Shown here: piece after piece, positions 4,397 to 16,521 of the stretch | Position numbering within the stretch: position 1 is the first letter of the stretch | Layout: every line of letters begins with the position of its first letter | Origin: Turneriella sp. | GTDB lineage: Bacteria; Spirochaetota; Leptospiria; Turneriellales; Turneriellaceae | Assembly (NCBI GenBank): GCA_019186965.1 | Contig: JABARV010000003.1 | Coordinates: forward strand, 62,001-126,000 | Reading direction: 5' to 3' | DNA length: 64,000 nucleotides | Position numbers and translations under genes: made by a program | The notes under the pieces: generated by a model | Told to the model about the DNA's origin: nothing | Database searches by the model: none | Seen by the model: the letters and a program-made list of their open reading frames with translations, nothing else

Positions 4397-4993
4397 ATGT
4401 GGATTTTTCGCTTCCAAGGCATGTTTGCCCTTTTACTGGGTCTATCCTCCTTATTTGCAGATTCCCTGACCGATCCCCACAAAAATCCGCTTCCTCCAGA
4501 GGCGCTGGCATTTCCCGATTTTAGCGAAAACTACCGCACCCGAATTTTAGGCGGTGATTACGAAATTTGGTCAGAGGAAAAAATAGAACGCTGGTGCTCT
4601 GCTCAAGGGCTTGCCGTCACGCCTGATAACAATGCAGCAGGGCTTATTTATAAACGTGCCGCTGTCATTGTTTCGCCTGGGCTTACGTTTAATTTAACGC
4701 GCCCTATAACAGAAAAAGGCGCTGCGTTGGCGAACGGTTGGACGCTCAATTTAGATATTGCGGCAATTAGCTCTACACGTACAAAATACACCAACCTTCT
4801 CGAAGCTGATATTTTTGTCGATGGAGTCTTTTTAAGGAAAATTACACAAGGCGCTAATTCTAAAGAAAAAAGTCCAGTACAAATACAAATACCACACATC
4901 CCCAGTGGTGAAGGCAAAATTCAAGTGGATATAAAACTCGCAAACCACCCACGTAATTTTTTATTCCTATACGACGCGTATCTTTCGCGGTGA
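4397..4993 (+). CDS. Secreted protein of unknown function
   Basis: A 198-residue protein with a clear signal peptide (MWIFRFQGMFALLLGLSSLFADS; hydrophobic core residues 9-20, likely cleavage after A21). The mature part is beta-rich, with alternating hydrophobic strands such as 'GWTLNLDIAAIS' and 'IQVDIKLANHPRNFLFLYDA', suggesting a beta-sandwich. There is one Cys, so no disulphide. I do not recognise the family. It stands 42 bases after ychF and is followed by a 73-base gap to a convergent outer-membrane protein gene. It is probably periplasmic. Confidence 0.65.
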   Translation: MWIFRFQGMFALLLGLSSLFADSLTDPHKNPLPPEALAFPDFSENYRTRILGGDYEIWSEEKIERWCSAQGLAVTPDNNAAGLIYKRAAVIVSPGLTFNLTRPITEKGAALANGWTLNLDIAAISSTRTKYTNLLEADIFVDGVFLRKITQGANSKEKSPVQIQIPHIPSGEGKIQVDIKLANHPRNFLFLYDAYLSR

Positions 4994-5066: not shown

Positions 5067-6314
5067 TTAATCACCTGTGAAGTGGTAATCTACCGCAATC
5101 GACGCAAAAGCTTCCCACGAAGTACGGTCTTTGTGTTCGTAGCCCGCATAGTTGGCATCCGTTGTAGCGTCGGCCGTAAACCCGGTACGTACAAACCTAT
5201 CTGGACTATACGGATTTACAAACCACCAATGCCCTTCGTAGCCCAAGCTTATGACAATACCAACATTATTGACGCGAATCGCGTAAATATCGAGTGTCGT
5301 GTTTAAAATATACTCGTTTTCGTTAAAATAACCAGACTTCGCCATCTGCGTAAAGTAGGTAAGCGCGGGAAAATAAAAACGTGCACTCAAACGCACCTTG
5401 GGATGGAACTGGATATACTGCCGGTATGCAAGCATAAATGTTGAATATGTCCAGTCGTCGTTACGGATTGCTTGCCGTACTGGGTCTGAGTAATCCCTAT
5501 AGTACCATACGCGCAAGCTTGGGCCTAAAGAAGCGTCGAACCAGCGGAACGCACTCCCCCAGTTGAAAAGCATGTTAAGCGGGGTAAGATGGTAATACGC
5601 GCTTGCGTACACCATCGTTACTTCAGTTGCCGATGTACCTGCGGCTTGGCGCAGTTGGTTTGAAATCCCTGCGCTTGCTAAATTCGCTTGTTTTGTCGGA
5701 TCAAAACCTTGCGTCGGATCGTATCCCGTATCCACAGGAATTGTCGTTGGACCTGTTGGGGTTGTTACAGTGTAATTAAAGCGAGTTGGTTTTTGCTCTG
5801 TTTTTTGGGTTTTAAATCCTGTTTCAAAATCGGTAAAAATTCCACGGTTCGAGCGGTAATACTGGAACCCTGTTTTCGAGTCGTGGTTGTCTTCGCTGTC
5901 TTTACCCATACGAAAACTTAAATCCATACCAAAAAGAGCGGTTATATCTAAAGAATCAAGCGTATACGTACGCATCGTCTTTGTCGAAGGGTTTTCCGTA
6001 CGTGTTGTAAAATTGTAAAGCCCTGCTGAAAATCCTATAGTAAAAGTTCCCAATGTAGGCTTTTCGCTTAAGTTGAGGCTTTGCGATTTTTTATCGGGCA
6101 ATTTTGCAGCAGGCTTTGCGGCAATTTCCTTTTCTTCTTTACCTATAGCAGGAAGCGCTTGTCCAATAGCACCCTTTTTTGCTTCTACCTTTTTAGCAGC
6201 GGGGGCTTTTGCTGGTGCTGGCTTTGGTGCAGGATTTGCACGGCGCGGAGCTGCAAACAAGGATATCCACGAAGCTGTAAGAAATACCCCAATTAAAGAT
6301 ACTACACTTTTCAT
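5067..6314 (-). CDS. Putative outer-membrane beta-barrel with Ala/Pro/Lys-rich linker
   Basis: A 415-residue protein with a signal peptide (MKSVVSLIGVFLTASWISLFAA). A low-complexity Ala/Pro/Lys linker follows (about residues 25-75, 'PAPKPAPAKAPAAKK'), then a long stretch of alternating aromatic strands typical of outer-membrane barrels, for example 'FTIGFSAGLYNFTTRTEN' and 'VGIVISLGYEGHWWFVNPY'. It ends 'AFASIAVDYHFTGD', not with a terminal Phe. The linker could span the periplasm or bind peptidoglycan, but that is a guess. It is the last gene of a seven-gene minus-strand operon starting at 11297, and its ATG overlaps the stop of the preceding lipoprotein gene (ATGA). No family recognised. 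Confidence 0.7.
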   Translation of the reverse strand: MKSVVSLIGVFLTASWISLFAAPRRANPAPKPAPAKAPAAKKVEAKKGAIGQALPAIGKEEKEIAAKPAAKLPDKKSQSLNLSEKPTLGTFTIGFSAGLYNFTTRTENPSTKTMRTYTLDSLDITALFGMDLSFRMGKDSEDNHDSKTGFQYYRSNRGIFTDFETGFKTQKTEQKPTRFNYTVTTPTGPTTIPVDTGYDPTQGFDPTKQANLASAGISNQLRQAAGTSATEVTMVYASAYYHLTPLNMLFNWGSAFRWFDASLGPSLRVWYYRDYSDPVRQAIRNDDWTYSTFMLAYRQYIQFHPKVRLSARFYFPALTYFTQMAKSGYFNENEYILNTTLDIYAIRVNNVGIVISLGYEGHWWFVNPYSPDRFVRTGFTADATTDANYAGYEHKDRTSWEAFASIAVDYHFTGD

Positions 6315-6778
6315 GGCACCACCACGAAGTTAGAATAGAGGCGGCCTGTCTTGCCGTCGTATTTGTAATCTAAACAGATAATGTAATACCCTTGGTACGT
6401 ACCGGTAACTGTTGTTGTGCTTGGTTTCACTTCGCTCAAATTGTATTTTACTGTATAACCACTTAAGGTACCGGCATTTTTGACTGCCGTAATATCTGCT
6501 TCTGAAGGCGCTGAGCTCTTAAAAAGCAACTGGGCATTACCTGCAATTTTTATATCATCTGAGGAAAGTTCTTTTGTATCACCATCTCCATCTTTATAAT
6601 AAACAGCACCCCATTCGAGCTTTACTCCCTCCGCCGCGTTTTTAAAAGTTAATCCAAGGCGAAAAGAGCCGCTATCGTAAATTGGATCGAGAGGATTCGT
6701 ATGGTCAGACGGAAATTCCGTTATCGCGCACGATACAAGAGAAAAACATACGAGGACGCCAAATACTAATTTTACCAT
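6311..6778 (-). CDS. Small lipoprotein of unknown function
   Basis: A 155-residue lipoprotein. The signal peptide MVKLVFGVLVCFSLVSC has lipobox LVSC, predicting a lipidated Cys at residue 17. The mature part starts AITEFPSDHTNPLDP, a spacing like many spirochaete envelope lipoproteins ('NPLDPxYD' recurs in extracellular beta-sandwich domains). A 'GTYQGYYIICLDYKYDGKTG' strand pair near the C-terminus suggests an immunoglobulin-like fold. The start overlaps the upstream gene by 7 bases and the stop overlaps the downstream barrel gene by 4, so it is tightly embedded in the seven-gene envelope operon. Confidence 0.7.
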   Translation of the reverse strand: MVKLVFGVLVCFSLVSCAITEFPSDHTNPLDPIYDSGSFRLGLTFKNAAEGVKLEWGAVYYKDGDGDTKELSSDDIKIAGNAQLLFKSSAPSEADITAVKNAGTLSGYTVKYNLSEVKPSTTTVTGTYQGYYIICLDYKYDGKTGRLYSNFVVVP

Positions 6779-7641
6779 TTTGGCCTCGTGTTTTTCATCA
6801 TGAATTCTTGGAAAAATGAGAGCTGTGGAGTATAGTTTAGCTTTCCTGCAAAATACTTTTGGTGTACTTGGTGGAGTACATCGTCTGCACGCTCACGGTC
6901 TTCAAATGCATCCCAAACCGAATACGCCCAAGTTAGAGCGCCGATTATGTACATTGTGCGTGCAACTTCTTCGTGGTTACGCACCTCTTTGTACTTCTTT
7001 TCTGCGTCCCCTGCAGTCGTAGCAGCCTCGTAGTCTTTACGTGCTTGCGCTATTTTGGTTTCACGCGAATAACCATACCCAATTGAACCGTACGTGATAA
7101 GCGCCATCGCAGTACCTGTGATGTAGTTTTTGTTATAAAACTGTCCCCACCCTGACAAAACTATAGAACGGATACACGCTCCCTCTGCTGTTTTCATAAT
7201 TTCTGTAGTAAAGTAATCTAAGTCAAAAAAGCTTACAGTAACTTGGCAATCCATAACCGCAACATAAAAGGGAGAAAAATTAATTCCGTGCTCCCACTTG
7301 GGGTCGCTACAACGCGCTTCGTCGATAACCTTTGCGTTAACATCGGTAATTAGTTGCTCGTCGGTAATTTGCATATCCTGTGATTTAACAAGCATGTGCC
7401 GAAAGCTTGAAACTGAACGCACTAACGCCTTATTATGCGCGTCAATTTTAGCGTTATAGATAGCAATTTCCTGTGAGCGTCCTTTGCCAATGGCGTCGCG
7501 CACACGCACGACTTTTTGGGTTGAAAAATACTCTTTATCAAGCCCCAGCGTTTCTCCGTTTTCTTTGTTTCCAGCTGCGCCCAAAAGGCTGGGGACTAGC
7601 GTAAAAGCAAATAAAATTGCCGCGCTTTTTATAGATGGCAT
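6772..7641 (-). CDS. Envelope protein with DUF5683-like GWGQ motif (paralogue B)
   Basis: A 289-residue protein from the chosen ATG at 7641 (MPSIKSAAILFAFTLVPSLL, a good signal peptide); the upstream ATG at 7665 would put eight extra residues before it. The middle carries 'SIVLSGWGQFYNKNYITGTA', the hydrophobic loop motif of DUF5683-type small membrane domains, followed by two candidate transmembrane helices ('GTAMALITYGSIGYGYS', 'MYIIGALTWAYSVWDAF'). The N-terminal half is a periplasmic alpha/beta region with charged helices. It is a diverged tandem paralogue of the gene just upstream (7629-8435), which has the same layout. It overlaps both operon neighbours. Confidence 0.65.
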   Translation of the reverse strand: MPSIKSAAILFAFTLVPSLLGAAGNKENGETLGLDKEYFSTQKVVRVRDAIGKGRSQEIAIYNAKIDAHNKALVRSVSSFRHMLVKSQDMQITDEQLITDVNAKVIDEARCSDPKWEHGINFSPFYVAVMDCQVTVSFFDLDYFTTEIMKTAEGACIRSIVLSGWGQFYNKNYITGTAMALITYGSIGYGYSRETKIAQARKDYEAATTAGDAEKKYKEVRNHEEVARTMYIIGALTWAYSVWDAFEDRERADDVLHQVHQKYFAGKLNYTPQLSFFQEFMMKNTRPKW

Positions 7642-8435
7642 GAAAAACCCCCACCAAAGCTGCATTGAAAGAGTACAAAATCGAACTTAACCCCACGCTC
7701 GGTTAAAGGTACATATTCGTAACGGGCATCTAACCTATACGCTTGGCGTAAATTTTCAAGCCCTTGCCTACCCATGTACCGTGACGTTGCCGCTTCAGAG
7801 ACGTTAAAACTCCATAAAATTAGGGCGGGTAGTTGAAAATTGAGCGAGGCTGTGCTTAAGTCGTCGCTCGTTTTTGCTGCCTTTGCCGCTTGGACAAAAA
7901 GTACGTAGAAGGTCCAAAAGCCGACACCGTATAAGAAACTCGTCGTATACTGCCTGTTGTAGAGCTGGCCCCAACCCGGTACCGCCATAGAACGGTACGT
8001 AGCCCCTGTAATTGTTTTCTCGTAATCTTCCATAAATTTAGGAAGGTCTACATAGTCCATTTGCATCGAAACATTCATGTTAACGCGCAAGGGTTCACCC
8101 GCAGGTCGTGAAAAACGGTAGTTTAACACTTGAACGTCTGTTACTTGGAGGTGCGCCTCTTGGGTAACCCACGTACTTTCCAATACAAAGTCTCTCGCTT
8201 CGCTACGGCCCACGAGCTCAGACTCCCCTAAACTCGTACCGACCTTCATCGCTTGGTCAACCGCGTTGTTAAACGCCTCTACAGGATCGTTTTTTAAACT
8301 TTCGCCAACGCCGTCTTCTGCGCTTACTTTGACTTTGAAGCTGTTTGTATATTCTCCGGCAAAGCGTGGCGAGAAAATTGACAGCGCGACAAAAGTAAGT
8401 GCTACGCAGGAGTATTTTTTTATTTGCTTGCCCAT
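7629..8435 (-). CDS. Envelope protein with DUF5683-like GWGQ motif (paralogue A)
   Basis: A 268-residue protein from the ATG at 8435, which overlaps the stop of the preceding gene by one base (TAATG). It gives MGKQIKKYSCVALTFVALSI, a usable signal peptide; an ATG eight codons upstream is less likely. The N-terminal periplasmic part contains 'DPVEAFNNAVDQAMKVGTSL', like LPP20/FlgT-type 'A..A...' helices. The motif 'RSMAVPGWGQLYNRQYTTS' precedes two hydrophobic helices, as in DUF5683 proteins. The same architecture in the next gene points to an old tandem duplication. Role unknown; membrane attachment is inferred from the helices. Confidence 0.65.
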   Translation of the reverse strand: MGKQIKKYSCVALTFVALSIFSPRFAGEYTNSFKVKVSAEDGVGESLKNDPVEAFNNAVDQAMKVGTSLGESELVGRSEARDFVLESTWVTQEAHLQVTDVQVLNYRFSRPAGEPLRVNMNVSMQMDYVDLPKFMEDYEKTITGATYRSMAVPGWGQLYNRQYTTSFLYGVGFWTFYVLFVQAAKAAKTSDDLSTASLNFQLPALILWSFNVSEAATSRYMGRQGLENLRQAYRLDARYEYVPLTERGVKFDFVLFQCSFGGGFSCHL

Positions 8436-9034
8436 TATTTCCACTCCACTGGTGCCCACATATACCCTAACCGATACTCAGTTTCCCAATTTACTTGGCC
8501 AGGGTGTCCAATAAATATGACTGTCGAAGTTAACCCAAATAATTCAAGCCCCATCAAGCCGTACACCCCCCAACGGTCGTAGTAAAGTTGGTTGTAGCGT
8601 AAATTTAACCCCATACCAAAGTGCATTTTAAAATATAAAGGTGTGTACGTACGAAAAAGAACGCCCGGATAACTTGAAATTGTCCATTCTTTTGTTCCGG
8701 GGTATGCCCCAACAGGAATATACTGTGGAGAAAAATCTACGTCGAGATAATAGTAAAAGAACTTATGTCCATCCCACTGGTCGTCAAGCTTGGAGTTATA
8801 GAGTAAACCAATGCCGCCACCCACTTGGTTGAAAAAACCAACGTCGCTTTGCCTGTCGACTCCACGAGAAGATTTATTCGCATAAAGCCAAGGGATTAAT
8901 TTTGCTGGCTCACGGTTAAATTCTGTTGCTGGCATTCCAGAACGGGGTTGTTTAATGGTCGGGCCACTCGAACGGCAATGCGCTGCAAAAACTATCACGC
9001 ATAAAAGAAGTATGTAATAATATAATTTTCTCAT
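8435..9034 (-). CDS. Outer-membrane lipoprotein with barrel-like strands
   Basis: A 199-residue protein beginning MRKLYYYILLLCVIVFAAHC, with lipobox AAHC giving a lipidated Cys at residue 20. The rest is rich in aromatic residues and alternating strands ('GGGIGLLYNSKLDDQWDG', 'MHFGMGLNLRYNQLYYDRW') and ends 'EYRLGYMWAPVEWK'. It resembles a small eight-stranded barrel or a lipid-anchored beta domain. It overlaps its upstream neighbour by 4 bases and its downstream neighbour by 1. No family recognised. Confidence 0.65.
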   Translation of the reverse strand: MRKLYYYILLLCVIVFAAHCRSSGPTIKQPRSGMPATEFNREPAKLIPWLYANKSSRGVDRQSDVGFFNQVGGGIGLLYNSKLDDQWDGHKFFYYYLDVDFSPQYIPVGAYPGTKEWTISSYPGVLFRTYTPLYFKMHFGMGLNLRYNQLYYDRWGVYGLMGLELFGLTSTVIFIGHPGQVNWETEYRLGYMWAPVEWK

Positions 9035-9531
9035 ATATTTAGCAACCGGAATGCATATTTAAAGCCAACAGCAACTGAAGTACCAGTTGGGTAGCGATAG
9101 TCAGCGGCGTTATTATCCATATAACGGAACGTATAGAATAGACGCCAGTTTTCGCTAAAATAGAAATCCATACCCGCAGCAAAGTGGTATGCATACGTAC
9201 GTGGCAGCCACGGCATAATACCGCCACCGACGAAAAGGCTCATTTTGTCGGTACGTACAAAGTGGAAATAGCCCGAAAAGGCAACAAAGAAAAAACGGTA
9301 ATCTTCCCCTATGTCACCTGCACTATCGTCAAAAGCTTTTTGCGAGACAAATCCTTCAATTTCTGCATCAAAACGCTTATTCGAGGTAAAAAGCCCAAAG
9401 CCAAGAAAATTGGTTTGCTTGGAGTTCATGTACTCGAACTTACCACCCCCCATTTCAATACCTTCTACAGATGCCGTAAAGGGAAGTAAAAAAAGCGCTA
9501 AGAGGAAAGCGTGTAAAAAAGAAAATCGCAT
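9031..9531 (-). CDS. Small outer-membrane beta-barrel protein
   Basis: A 166-residue protein with a signal peptide (MRFSFLHAFLLALFLLPFTAS) and about eight predicted amphipathic strands, e.g. 'MSLFVGGGIMPWLPRTYAYH', 'FAAGMDFYFSENWRLFYTFR' and 'TSVAVGFKYAFRLLNI'. Size and strand pattern fit an OmpA/OmpW-like eight-stranded barrel without a peptidoglycan domain. The ATG overlaps the stop of the upstream large barrel gene by one base, and its stop overlaps the next ATG by four, so the genes are translationally coupled. Confidence 0.7.
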   Translation of the reverse strand: MRFSFLHAFLLALFLLPFTASVEGIEMGGGKFEYMNSKQTNFLGFGLFTSNKRFDAEIEGFVSQKAFDDSAGDIGEDYRFFFVAFSGYFHFVRTDKMSLFVGGGIMPWLPRTYAYHFAAGMDFYFSENWRLFYTFRYMDNNAADYRYPTGTSVAVGFKYAFRLLNI

Positions 9532-11297
9532 TATTTTAACTCCTCCAAAAGCATACGGTGTGATTTTGCAAATTGCTCTGTCGCTTTTTTAACGAAAGTA
9601 GTTTCTTCTGCATCGCTACCAATGACTTCTGTCCGCGCCGAAATACTTGAATCTCCTTTTTTGTAATACAAAGTCAAGAGTTTCATTTCTCCATAATTGC
9701 CGTCGATGTAAAGCTTATTGAAGACAATTAGGTCAGCCCCCAAAGCCTGCTGCATACGTTTGAGGTATGCGCTTTCTAACTCGCCTTTTTGCTGCTTAGG
9801 CGTCGATACAAGTTTATTTGCGGCGATAAGGCGTCCCAACCGCGCTTTACTTACTTCAATTAAGAAATTACCCCGCAATTTCTCTTTAACAGGATACGAA
9901 GTGGCGCGGCCAGAGACAAACTCGACATCCACCGGATAAACAGCGACTATATACTTACCCAAAGTAATAGGCTTTGGTTTTGGTTTGGCCTTTTGGTTTG
10001 GTTTAACAGGCGCTTCTGGAGTTTCAGGTTCTGTTGGCGCAATTTCGGGAGCTGCATTTTTTTCATCAGCCGCTTGAATCGCAGAATCGTAGCTTGCTTC
10101 TTCTGGCGTTAGGGTTGTAACGGTATCTGCGATAATTTCACGCGGAGAAAGCTCGCGTGCAAAACGGTATTTATGCGAATAGCGTTCGGTGTAGCGTATG
10201 GGTGTTGGCCTACCTTTATTAGAGCCAATGACCTCGAACGATTGGTGGAACGCAAAACGGTGGTATACTGAGTGCGGGCGGTTAAAATTAACGCCAACAC
10301 CTTCGGGAAATTCGAGAGCGCTTGAGTACTCAAACGAGAGTTTGGAATTTTGGACAGTCTCGCCAAAACCAAGCCCCCAGTGTATCGACGTATAATTTTC
10401 TTCGATGGTGCCTTTGGTTAGGCCGCCGCGCAGCGCCAAAAAATGCGCTGGCCAAAATTCAAAGCCATACCGCATCCGCGTTAAATCTTTGGGAGAATTG
10501 ACAACGTCGACGTTAAGCATAAACTTATACGGGAAATGCATACTGAAACCCACGTTGTACTCTTCACGGTTGTCTATCGGGACTACTTCGTTATCTACCT
10601 TTACGAGGGGGTGAAGGTTACGCGCAGCAAGTCCTGCAGAAAGGCGCGGTAACCAACGCAACGCCTCACTGTACTGCGCAGGATCGAATGTACCCAAAAG
10701 ACCCACGTCGATAAACAATCCCTTTTGTTGCTTTGGGTACACAGCGCCCGCTACAGAATCCCCAAAATCAGCGCCAAACCATTTCACGGTTGTACCAAAA
10801 TTGAGTTTTCTTTCAAGCTTTGGAACAGGCATACCATACGAGATGCCTGCAATGTACGAGTATTTATTGCGATCGGGAAGAGAGTTTACGCCGTTATCTA
10901 CGTACTCGTTGTCTTGTACGCGGTTAAAAACGCCTGTAAGGCCAACTGTTCCGTAGGGTAAGGGAATCGACATTAAGAGGGACTGCCCTTGTACATCGTT
11001 TGCGCCGCTACGGTACGATAAACCATACTCAACGTAGTTAATTTGTGCAAGGCCTGCAGGGTTATAGTACACCGCCGATAAATCGTTGGCATTTCCCGTT
11101 TGTGCCATACCCATACCGTACGAACGCACCCCTAAAGGGACATTTAACGCACTAAGCGCAGAAAGCGTCGGCACAGAGTTTCCATCCGCCTTTTGCGCGA
11201 GTATGGACTCTTGAATAAAAAAAAGAGCACTAACTGCCCCTATGTAGTAAATTATCCGTGTTCTTTTCACAGGTGAATTTTTTCCAGTCGGCAGCAT
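9531..11297 (-). CDS. PorV/UPF0164-like barrel fused to a CsgG/LpoB-like domain
   Basis: A 588-residue protein and the first gene of the seven-gene operon. A signal-anchor-like N-terminus (residues 13-34) precedes a PorV/FadL-like outer-membrane barrel recognised by 'GVRSYGMGMAQTGNANDLS' followed by 'AVYYNPAGLAQ'. The barrel runs to about residue 345. A Pro/Lys/Glu-rich linker follows (about 400-440). The last 150 residues look like a soluble CsgG/LpoB/FlgT-type alpha/beta domain: 'KYIVAVYPVDVEF', 'MQQALGADLIVFNKLYIDG', 'ATEQFAKSHRMLLEELK'. Such domains usually sit at the inner face of the outer membrane. The fusion is visible in one uninterrupted frame; the domain assignments are by eye. Confidence 0.7.
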   Translation of the reverse strand: MLPTGKNSPVKRTRIIYYIGAVSALFFIQESILAQKADGNSVPTLSALSALNVPLGVRSYGMGMAQTGNANDLSAVYYNPAGLAQINYVEYGLSYRSGANDVQGQSLLMSIPLPYGTVGLTGVFNRVQDNEYVDNGVNSLPDRNKYSYIAGISYGMPVPKLERKLNFGTTVKWFGADFGDSVAGAVYPKQQKGLFIDVGLLGTFDPAQYSEALRWLPRLSAGLAARNLHPLVKVDNEVVPIDNREEYNVGFSMHFPYKFMLNVDVVNSPKDLTRMRYGFEFWPAHFLALRGGLTKGTIEENYTSIHWGLGFGETVQNSKLSFEYSSALEFPEGVGVNFNRPHSVYHRFAFHQSFEVIGSNKGRPTPIRYTERYSHKYRFARELSPREIIADTVTTLTPEEASYDSAIQAADEKNAAPEIAPTEPETPEAPVKPNQKAKPKPKPITLGKYIVAVYPVDVEFVSGRATSYPVKEKLRGNFLIEVSKARLGRLIAANKLVSTPKQQKGELESAYLKRMQQALGADLIVFNKLYIDGNYGEMKLLTLYYKKGDSSISARTEVIGSDAEETTFVKKATEQFAKSHRMLLEELK

Positions 11298-14031: not shown

Positions 14032-16521
14032 TTAACGTATCGTTAAATCGTACGGCATCAAAAAAAGCATCTTTTCTTCACGCATATCTTCTGTCTTTGC
14101 GATAAGGCGCGTTGCTTCACGTAAAATTTTGGGAAGAAGCAGCTTTTGCGGATTTCCTAATGCAAGGATATCTTTTGCTTCGCTTGGGTATACTTGTAGG
14201 TTAAAATAATTTTCGTCCACTCCCGCTTTTTCACGGGCAATTTCTATCGACAAAAGCAATCCTCCTTGTTTATCCACAAGCTTTTGTTGGATTGCATCTT
14301 TTCCGCTATAGATTCGCCCTCCCGCACGCGGTTTTACTTTTTCAACAGATTCGCCTCGGTTGTCTGCTACACGCCGCAAGAAGAGCTCGTAAAACTCTCC
14401 CAATTGTTCTCGTATAAGTACTCGCTCTTCGGGAGTAAAACTTTCCGTTTCGCTAAAAAGCGTCGCGTTTTTATGCGTTTTAAATGTGTGCTTCTTGACG
14501 CCAAGCCAATCGTAAAGGCCTTTGACGTTTATTTTCCCTGTAAAAATTCCGATAGAACCTGTAATTGAAGTATTGCTTGCAAGAATTTCATCACCACCGA
14601 CGGCAAGGTAATACCCCCCCGATGCGGCAGTATTTCCCATCGAGACAACAATGGGGAACTTTTCGCCACGCGCTTTTTTAACTTCACGTATCTTGTTCCA
14701 AATAATATCGGAGGCAAGGCTTGAACCTCCGGGGGAATCAATCCGAATAACAAGCCCACGGATTGAATGCGAATCCTTTATTTCGTCAAGCGCTTCTTGT
14801 ATCGTATCGGAACCAATTGTGCCTCGGCTAAAAAGGCCATCGGATTTCGATGTACCTGACATAATTTCACCGGATAAAACAAGCACGGCTATAGAGGGTT
14901 TTTCACCCCATGTATCGTCATAAAAAAGCGTCTTGGCATACTTCGACGCTGGAATTTTCCACTCGGGTGCAAGCGTCGCTTTTGCCGTTAGCTGTTCTTC
15001 GACATCAGGCATATACGCGACTTCATCGATAAGCCCTACTTTGCTTGCATTCGTTGCGGAATAAAATCCTCTTTCAAAAAGAGAATCTATTTTTTCTTCT
15101 TTAACCCTAAGCCTGCCCGTTATGACAGCAGATTTAATCTCTCCAATTGTCGATCGCAGAAGCGCTTCCAATTGTTCTTTATCGAACTTCGTAGGTTCCG
15201 ACCGTGTGAACCTATCGGGTGCAGATTTATAATCGCCCAAAGAAACAAAGTCTGCTTTTACGCCAACTTTTGTAAGCAAATCTTTGATAAAGTAGGCATC
15301 GGCTTTAAGCCCCGAGATATCAAGCATTGCCGACTCGGGCATATAGATACGGTCGGCCATACTCGAAATAAAGTATTCTTTATTACCTGCATTTTCAAGA
15401 AACGCGTATACGGGTTTTTTCTTTTGAAAATCCAAAAGCGCATTACGCAATTCTTCTGCCTGGCCCCAGCCACCTGAAAAATTGCGACCAGTTACGAGAA
15501 TCCCCCGTATTTGCGCGTCATTTTTTGCCATTGCAATTGTACGCAAAAGTTCAAGAAAAGTAAAATTTTCTGAAATGAAGAGAGAACCTTCTTGTTTATG
15601 TTCATCGACTTTATCGTCGAGATGCACTTCGAGGTATTTACCCAGAGCCGTAATTCCCGTTGCATAGCGTTCGCGCCCAATGAGAATTCCCCCCCCCATA
15701 AAAGTTCCTGAATTGGAAGGAGTGCTCATGTGGAACGAGAGCTGGCTAATATACTGCGCAAACCTGAGGCCAAAAAATGCGCCATTCGTTTCGCCGTAAC
15801 CTGCGTAGAGGCTATTTCCCGGCCAGAGATTTGCCTCGACTAAAAACTTTGGAGACAAATTTTGCCAATTAGTCTTCGACGAAAGGTTAACATCCACAGA
15901 AAGCGTTAAATTTTCGGTATACTTACCGGGAAGCGGACGAAATCCAACACCCGTATCCCAATTTGTTTTAAAAATCTCACCACGAAAAACAGGCTCGTTG
16001 AGGGACCTTCCGACCGCGCCAATAGAAAGCCTACGCCACGGACGTAAAATAAGGCCAACATCCCACTGCGAATAGCGATCGAGATAGCTAAGGGAAGAAT
16101 TGTACCACGAGTAAGATGTCCCCATAGAAAAAAATGGCGTATTGATAATCCCCATCCCCACAGTGTAGCGCCGCGCATATTCTTGCGTATCCCCCAAGCG
16201 CCATTGGGTTGAAAAAGCGATTCCAAGTAAATTCAAGAAAACCATGTGGTCGTCGAGTTTATTTGTGGGATTGCGCCCGTAAAAATAGCCCAACTGCAAC
16301 GCGTGGTAACCTAACCCCGCCGGATTAAAGTACAGGCTTGTCGTATCGTCGGATGTCGCCACTGATTTTTGTGGCAAGTTCGGCGTATCGATCATCCTGT
16401 TGGTTTGCAAAACGTCGTTTGCTACAGGCGCAACTTGCTGTGCGGTTAACGCACTTACGAAAAAAAGAATAACAATAAGGAAAATTTTCTTCTTTGGCTT
16501 CTCGATTTTTAGCCTAACCAC
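14032..16521 (-). CDS. sppA: Outer-membrane barrel fused to long-form SppA protease
   Basis: An 829-residue fusion. A signal peptide (residues 10-28) is followed by a PorV/UPF0164-like segment with 'DDTTSLYFNPAGLGYHALQL' and barrel-like strands to about residue 300. From about 320 it matches the tandem-domain SppA (67 kDa type), which cleaves signal-peptide remnants. The catalytic Lys is K432 in 'GDYKSAPDRFTRSEPT' and the nucleophile is S634 in 'MGNTAASGGYYLAVGG'. Their spacing of 202 residues agrees with E. coli (K209, S409). The usual inner-membrane anchor is replaced by the barrel, so the protease may act at the outer membrane; that is inference. The next gene downstream of gap on the same strand, at 16531, lies 9 bases away. 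Confidence 0.85.
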   Translation of the reverse strand: MVRLKIEKPKKKIFLIVILFFVSALTAQQVAPVANDVLQTNRMIDTPNLPQKSVATSDDTTSLYFNPAGLGYHALQLGYFYGRNPTNKLDDHMVFLNLLGIAFSTQWRLGDTQEYARRYTVGMGIINTPFFSMGTSYSWYNSSLSYLDRYSQWDVGLILRPWRRLSIGAVGRSLNEPVFRGEIFKTNWDTGVGFRPLPGKYTENLTLSVDVNLSSKTNWQNLSPKFLVEANLWPGNSLYAGYGETNGAFFGLRFAQYISQLSFHMSTPSNSGTFMGGGILIGRERYATGITALGKYLEVHLDDKVDEHKQEGSLFISENFTFLELLRTIAMAKNDAQIRGILVTGRNFSGGWGQAEELRNALLDFQKKKPVYAFLENAGNKEYFISSMADRIYMPESAMLDISGLKADAYFIKDLLTKVGVKADFVSLGDYKSAPDRFTRSEPTKFDKEQLEALLRSTIGEIKSAVITGRLRVKEEKIDSLFERGFYSATNASKVGLIDEVAYMPDVEEQLTAKATLAPEWKIPASKYAKTLFYDDTWGEKPSIAVLVLSGEIMSGTSKSDGLFSRGTIGSDTIQEALDEIKDSHSIRGLVIRIDSPGGSSLASDIIWNKIREVKKARGEKFPIVVSMGNTAASGGYYLAVGGDEILASNTSITGSIGIFTGKINVKGLYDWLGVKKHTFKTHKNATLFSETESFTPEERVLIREQLGEFYELFLRRVADNRGESVEKVKPRAGGRIYSGKDAIQQKLVDKQGGLLLSIEIAREKAGVDENYFNLQVYPSEAKDILALGNPQKLLLPKILREATRLIAKTEDMREEKMLFLMPYDLTIR

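Follow-up and report, generated by a model that had tools for sequence, protein, structure and literature searches.

We describe a seven-gene operon (g1-g7) for exported envelope proteins in the spirochaete genus Turneriella, whose gene order is preserved across a family, its sister family and a genome of another class. The operon was found in a window of 64,000 nucleotides, the whole stretch of DNA analysed, from a genome of 3.08 Mb; the genome of a genus-mate (G005) measures 4.4 Mb in two contigs. That g1-g7 form one functional unit is well supported, because their order is conserved across family, sister family and class while the flanking genes change, and their products, judged from sequence, probably form one physical complex. 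The best explanation we can offer, tentatively, is a trans-envelope complex that aids outer-membrane biogenesis. Most of the parts have known folds, and the combination is new as far as we know: in the openly licensed papers returned by searches for DUF5683, for PorV together with spirochaetes and for UPF0164, no description of the operon was found, and UPF0164 appeared only in Treponema proteome, transcriptome and genome papers. The operon would provide the PorV/FadL-type barrel with a third setting, beside type 9 secretion and the BAM complex of Bacteroidota, and DUF5683, of which the open literature searched says next to nothing, with its first functional context; as its genus can be cultivated, it is also a concrete target for study.

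The seven open reading frames occupy positions 5067-11297 on the minus strand (Table 1), and with ATG starts they reproduce every overlap listed in the original prediction (1, 4, 1, 13, 7 and 4 bases in succession). Inspection also bore out the claim that all seven products carry an export signal, with signal peptides in g1, g2, g4, g5 and g7 and a lipobox cysteine in g3 and g6. Nearly all pairs in the operon keep an intergenic distance between about -16 and +13 bases, and promoter and terminator scans gave signals close to chance. The step from this coupling to a single complex, as originally drawn, proved the weaker argument, since overlap is ordinary here: with open reading frames taken at their longest, overlaps occur in 18 of the window's 36 pairs of same-strand neighbours. 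Because half of such neighbours do so, overlap by itself is uninformative, and gene order is the real evidence for a unit. A 198-aa exported protein encoded at 4397-4993 on the plus strand, convergent with g7, adjoins the operon only within the genus and matches no family.

Table 1. Genes of the operon, with coordinates in the window and assigned or predicted products.
Gene	Position	Strand	Product
g1	9531..11297	-	predicted PorV/FadL-type 14-strand outer-membrane barrel, linker and C-terminal CsgG/LpoB-like periplasmic domain
g2	9031..9531	-	small exported protein, probable 8-strand outer-membrane barrel
g3	8435..9034	-	beta-strand-rich lipoprotein, probably outer-membrane
g4	7629..8435	-	exported; alpha/beta N-terminal half and DUF5683 (PGWGQ) C-terminal half
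g5	6772..7641	-	g4 paralogue, DUF5683 (SGWGQ)
g6	6311..6778	-	lipoprotein, probably outer-membrane; conserved H-x-NPLD motif after lipobox
g7	5067..6314	-	exported, beta-rich, probable outer-membrane barrel

When 100 relatives were searched with g4 and all seven proteins were then compared locally by tblastn, g1-g7 came up in the same order and on the same strand in 12 genomes, contig ends permitting: the window genome and 11 others belonging to its family or to a sister family. In the sister-family genome, g6 was identified through its lipobox and NP motif. The flanking ychF and CofH/MqnC-type radical SAM genes are kept within the genus and replaced outside it, with g1-g7 unchanged. In a profile scan of 296 genomes of the phylum, full-length g5 was confined to the set from the Turneriella family and its sister family and to one MAG of another class (G049, labelled Brevinema andersonii), the sole genome of its class in the sample. 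The same scan did not find g5 in four genomes of 91-94% completeness from two other families of the same order, nor in Leptospira-type genomes; two genomes of the window family without a g5 match are incomplete (83% and 54%). The operon as a whole is missing from Leptospira-type relatives, from two sister families and from the rest of the 296 genomes scanned, and is not spirochaete-wide. The original prediction had proposed conserved gene order across spirochaetes as its check and scattered homologues as the outcome that would count against it; we find the order kept in the family, the sister family and one distant MAG, with changing flanks outside the genus, while most of the phylum sample is without the operon.

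The distant copy points to an ancient origin of the operon. In G049 the order is a fn3/FlgD_ig protein, g1, g2, g3, g4, g5, g6, g7 and a TPR/DUF5683 protein, and g1-g5 share 21-36% identity with their orthologues on the window side. Profiles built without G049 match its g1 (2e-36), g2 (7e-25), g3 (3e-17), g4 (9e-61) and g5 (3e-66), and those for g6 (7e-4) and g7 (2.4e-3) give matches that are weak, yet the best of the set; its TPR protein scores 63 bits against the TPR profile. One could suppose that g1-g7 act separately and stay in order only for useful co-expression, and both the frequency of overlap in this genome and the ability of a YidD/TPR part of the extended operon to lie apart agree with such a co-regulated set. 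We nevertheless consider this doubtful, as it is unusual for unrelated genes to keep their order across classes at about 21-36% identity while their neighbours change.

The largest product, g1, is predicted with good support from its structural model to be a 14-strand barrel of PorV/FadL topology. The AlphaFold2 model (mean pLDDT 73) has 14 long strands at residues about 89-354, a disordered Pro/Lys-rich linker (359-445) and a C-terminal alpha/beta domain (449-587), the candidate CsgG/LpoB-like part, and the N-terminal hatch motif YNPAGL contains an NPA that is invariant in 11 of 11 sequences. The top PDB matches in Foldseek were to T9SS PorV (8gl6_F, E 4e-9; 6h3i_F, TM 0.66 by target), followed by FadL-type channels, including FadL and TodX; a chain of 9n2d, a structure of the Flavobacterium BAM complex, was also among the matches. 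These folds support the PorV-like barrel named in the original prediction, at a sequence score of 59 bits against PorV_fam (NF033709), where the curated cut-off is 90. The CsgG/LpoB-like domain named with it stands less firmly: comparison with a CsgG set gave a weak match (hhalign E 2e-4, probability 48%, with shuffles and unrelated profiles under 3%) and the predicted element order (beta-alpha-beta-alpha-beta-beta-beta-alpha) fits such a domain, but a Pfam search of this region gave no match. The g1 C-terminus and CsgG-like proteins from related genomes can be aligned in register (VAVYP at the start, GADLIVF), as in the wider group of CsgG, LpoB and FlgT-middle domains, but the likeness is weak, the alignment shows the domain to be missing from G049 g1, and a CsgG-type pore is unsupported. 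PDB sequence searches with g1, g4 and g7 profiles returned nothing useful.

A barrel of this topology invites two other readings. One is that g1 imports a hydrophobic compound through a lateral opening, with the remaining products as binding, gating or storage partners, which would agree with the invariant hatch motif, with the presence of FadL and TodX among the best fold matches, and with the growth of Leptospira-type spirochaetes on long-chain fatty acids. We regard such uptake as unlikely, for the closest fold is PorV and not FadL, PorV-type proteins keep the NPAG motif although we know of none that acts as a transporter, known FadL systems need no comparable set of envelope partners, and catabolic genes are missing from the conserved unit. 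The other reading starts from the role of PorV-type barrels in type 9 secretion, and would have g1 hand on to the cell surface those proteins that carry a sorting domain at the C-terminus. T9SS PorV and g1 have in common the 14-strand FadL-type barrel and the N-terminal NPAG motif; g1 differs in its extra CsgG/LpoB-like domain, in its score below the family cut-off and in an operon without T9SS translocon or motor genes. The G049 protein does pass the PorV/PorQ cut-off of NF033709 (97.7 bits), and the gene directly before it comes close to the sorting-tail family TIGR04183 (22.4 bits, cut-off 23), a family with six matches in G049, four of them over the cut-off. Sorting of this kind nonetheless seems quite improbable: all T9SS motor genes are missing from the operon, the sorting-tail match is absent in the window genome and G005, SprA_N (PF14349) had no match in 11 genomes, a search in which the control genomes were also silent, and GldM (PF12081) had none in 8 genomes, where one control matched, weakly and below the cut-off. 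As SprA and GldM were not found, we make no claim that the operon is a type 9 secretion system. The gene in question, the first of the distant operon (L041 10175-10801), encodes fn3 and a FlgD_ig/T9SS sorting-tail-like domain.

The genes g4 and g5 were described originally as two tandem paralogues with a GWGQ motif. They are indeed homologous along their full length (hhalign E 6e-16), and both match DUF5683 (PF18935), g4 at 27.1 bits, over the Pfam cut-off of 26.7, and g5 just below it at 25.1 bits; DUF5683 matches (E up to 1) occur in 12 of 12 aligned g4 and 13 of 13 aligned g5 sequences. In a maximum-likelihood tree each forms one clade with support of 100/100, the G049 copy included, although the very long branches of the G049 rows make their placement inside each clade unsure. 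Since each clade takes in its distant copy, the two were distinct subunits before the split, and by this sequence phylogeny the duplication is older than the divergence of the G049 lineage. The hydropathy of the GWGQ hairpin is below the usual membrane-helix cut-off, and for that reason anchoring of g4 and g5 in the inner membrane is only a guess. A Foldseek search with the g5 model (pLDDT 69, a poor model) gave meaningless matches only. Leptospira proteins of the DUF5683 (PF18935)/LIC11435 type share the hairpin with g4 and g5, and faintly with the TPR protein, but the likeness is confined to the hairpin and their neighbourhoods are unrelated. Two adjoining Leptospira-type genes with a GWGQ-type hairpin were seen at L045 3985-7702, one of which matches the g4 profile (1.8e-10).

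The N-terminal domain of g4 and g5 was also considered as LPP20/FlgT-like, and this candidate was rejected, scoring about as a shuffled sequence does against the single LPP20 protein tested. A weak FlgT_N match (E 0.11) in 1 of 13 g5 homologues might hint that the periplasmic flagella have a partner here, in the outer membrane or the periplasm, but with that profile test failed, and with the operon missing from Leptospira-type genomes as well as from the remainder of the phylum sample, a flagellar role appears very remote.

The smaller products agree with an outer-membrane location to different degrees. OMP_b-brl (PF13505) is matched by 3 of 12 aligned g2 sequences (best E 8e-5). The two lipoproteins of the original prediction are upheld by conservation of the lipobox cysteine, Cys20 of g3 in 11 of 12 aligned sequences and that of g6 in 11 of 11, where C17, N28, P29 and D31 are invariant; g3 also shows an excess of amphipathic beta segments, 12 against 8.5 +/- 1.8. 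For g7, which had been read as a barrel with a Pro-rich linker, the barrel is probable, whereas in the alignment the Pro/Ala/Lys-rich N-terminal linker is limited to the genus; a family search with g7 gave no match, and a hydropathy beta-strand scan had not enough power to decide whether g2 and g7 are barrels.

Outside the genus Turneriella, the genes that come after g7 encode an exported YidD and then a TPR protein whose hairpin resembles DUF5683. The YidD of this extended operon in the relatives is a clear member of its family (TIGR00278/PF01809; 88 bits, cut-off 40), but differs from the ordinary form in an N-terminal signal peptide, seen by inspection, so that it is probably exported. Canonical YidD acts at the inner membrane. 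The window genome keeps its exported YidD and TPR/DUF5683 pair on contig C13 (L071 3604-4545 and 4545-4913, with a one-base overlap), and most Leptospira-type genomes searched carry the pair, mostly head to head, without g1-g7. YidD-TPR thus has the look of an old, separate module that in some lineages is joined to g1-g7. When the divergent YidD of Leptospira-type genomes was used to look for the operon there, the YidD/TPR pair came up and g1-g7 did not. This second, divergent YidD, in at least some cases with a lipobox, adjoins the TPR/DUF5683 gene at L136-L140 and L142-L146. In one relative (L037 3955-5424) g7 and YidD share a single 489-codon frame, which could be a natural fusion or reflect the loss of a stop codon.

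In the trans-envelope complex that we tentatively favour, the PorV/FadL-type barrel g1 would scaffold an assembly with g2 and g7 as accessory barrels and g3 and g6 as lipoproteins. The periplasmic partners would be g4, g5 and the TPR/DUF5683 protein, probably held at a membrane by their weakly hydrophobic GWGQ hairpins, and the assembly, with the exported YidD, would most likely assist, at the barrel, in building outer-membrane proteins, inserting them or holding them there. Biogenesis as the role is a guess that depends mainly on YidD and TPR. In its favour are the joint occurrence of a PorV/FadL-type scaffold with lipoproteins, a TPR protein and YidD, and the fact that the Flavobacterium BAM complex contains an essential FadL-family subunit, BamG (PMC12611786). 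BamG is a FadL-family barrel that is part of an outer-membrane machine, as proposed for g1, but the g1-g7 operon is without BamA, BamH and BamD genes. The hint is weakened because YidD and TPR are not always linked to the operon, lying apart from it in Turneriella, with YidD missing from the operon of G049; it also counts against this explanation that the operon is dispensed with by most spirochaetes, among them two sister families. A more far-reaching version, which we think improbable, would see in the PorV-type barrel, the two DUF5683 partners, the TPR protein and the exported YidD an undescribed spirochaete trans-envelope machine for the assembly or export of outer-membrane proteins, one whose route differs from those of BAM and T9SS.

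Elsewhere in the window, positions 14032-16521 on the minus strand encode an 829-aa protein with an SppA signal peptide peptidase region (SppA_67K, 266 bits, residues 322-782). The roughly 300 residues that precede this region, silent in a family search, resemble a PorV-type barrel by eye (FNPAGL).
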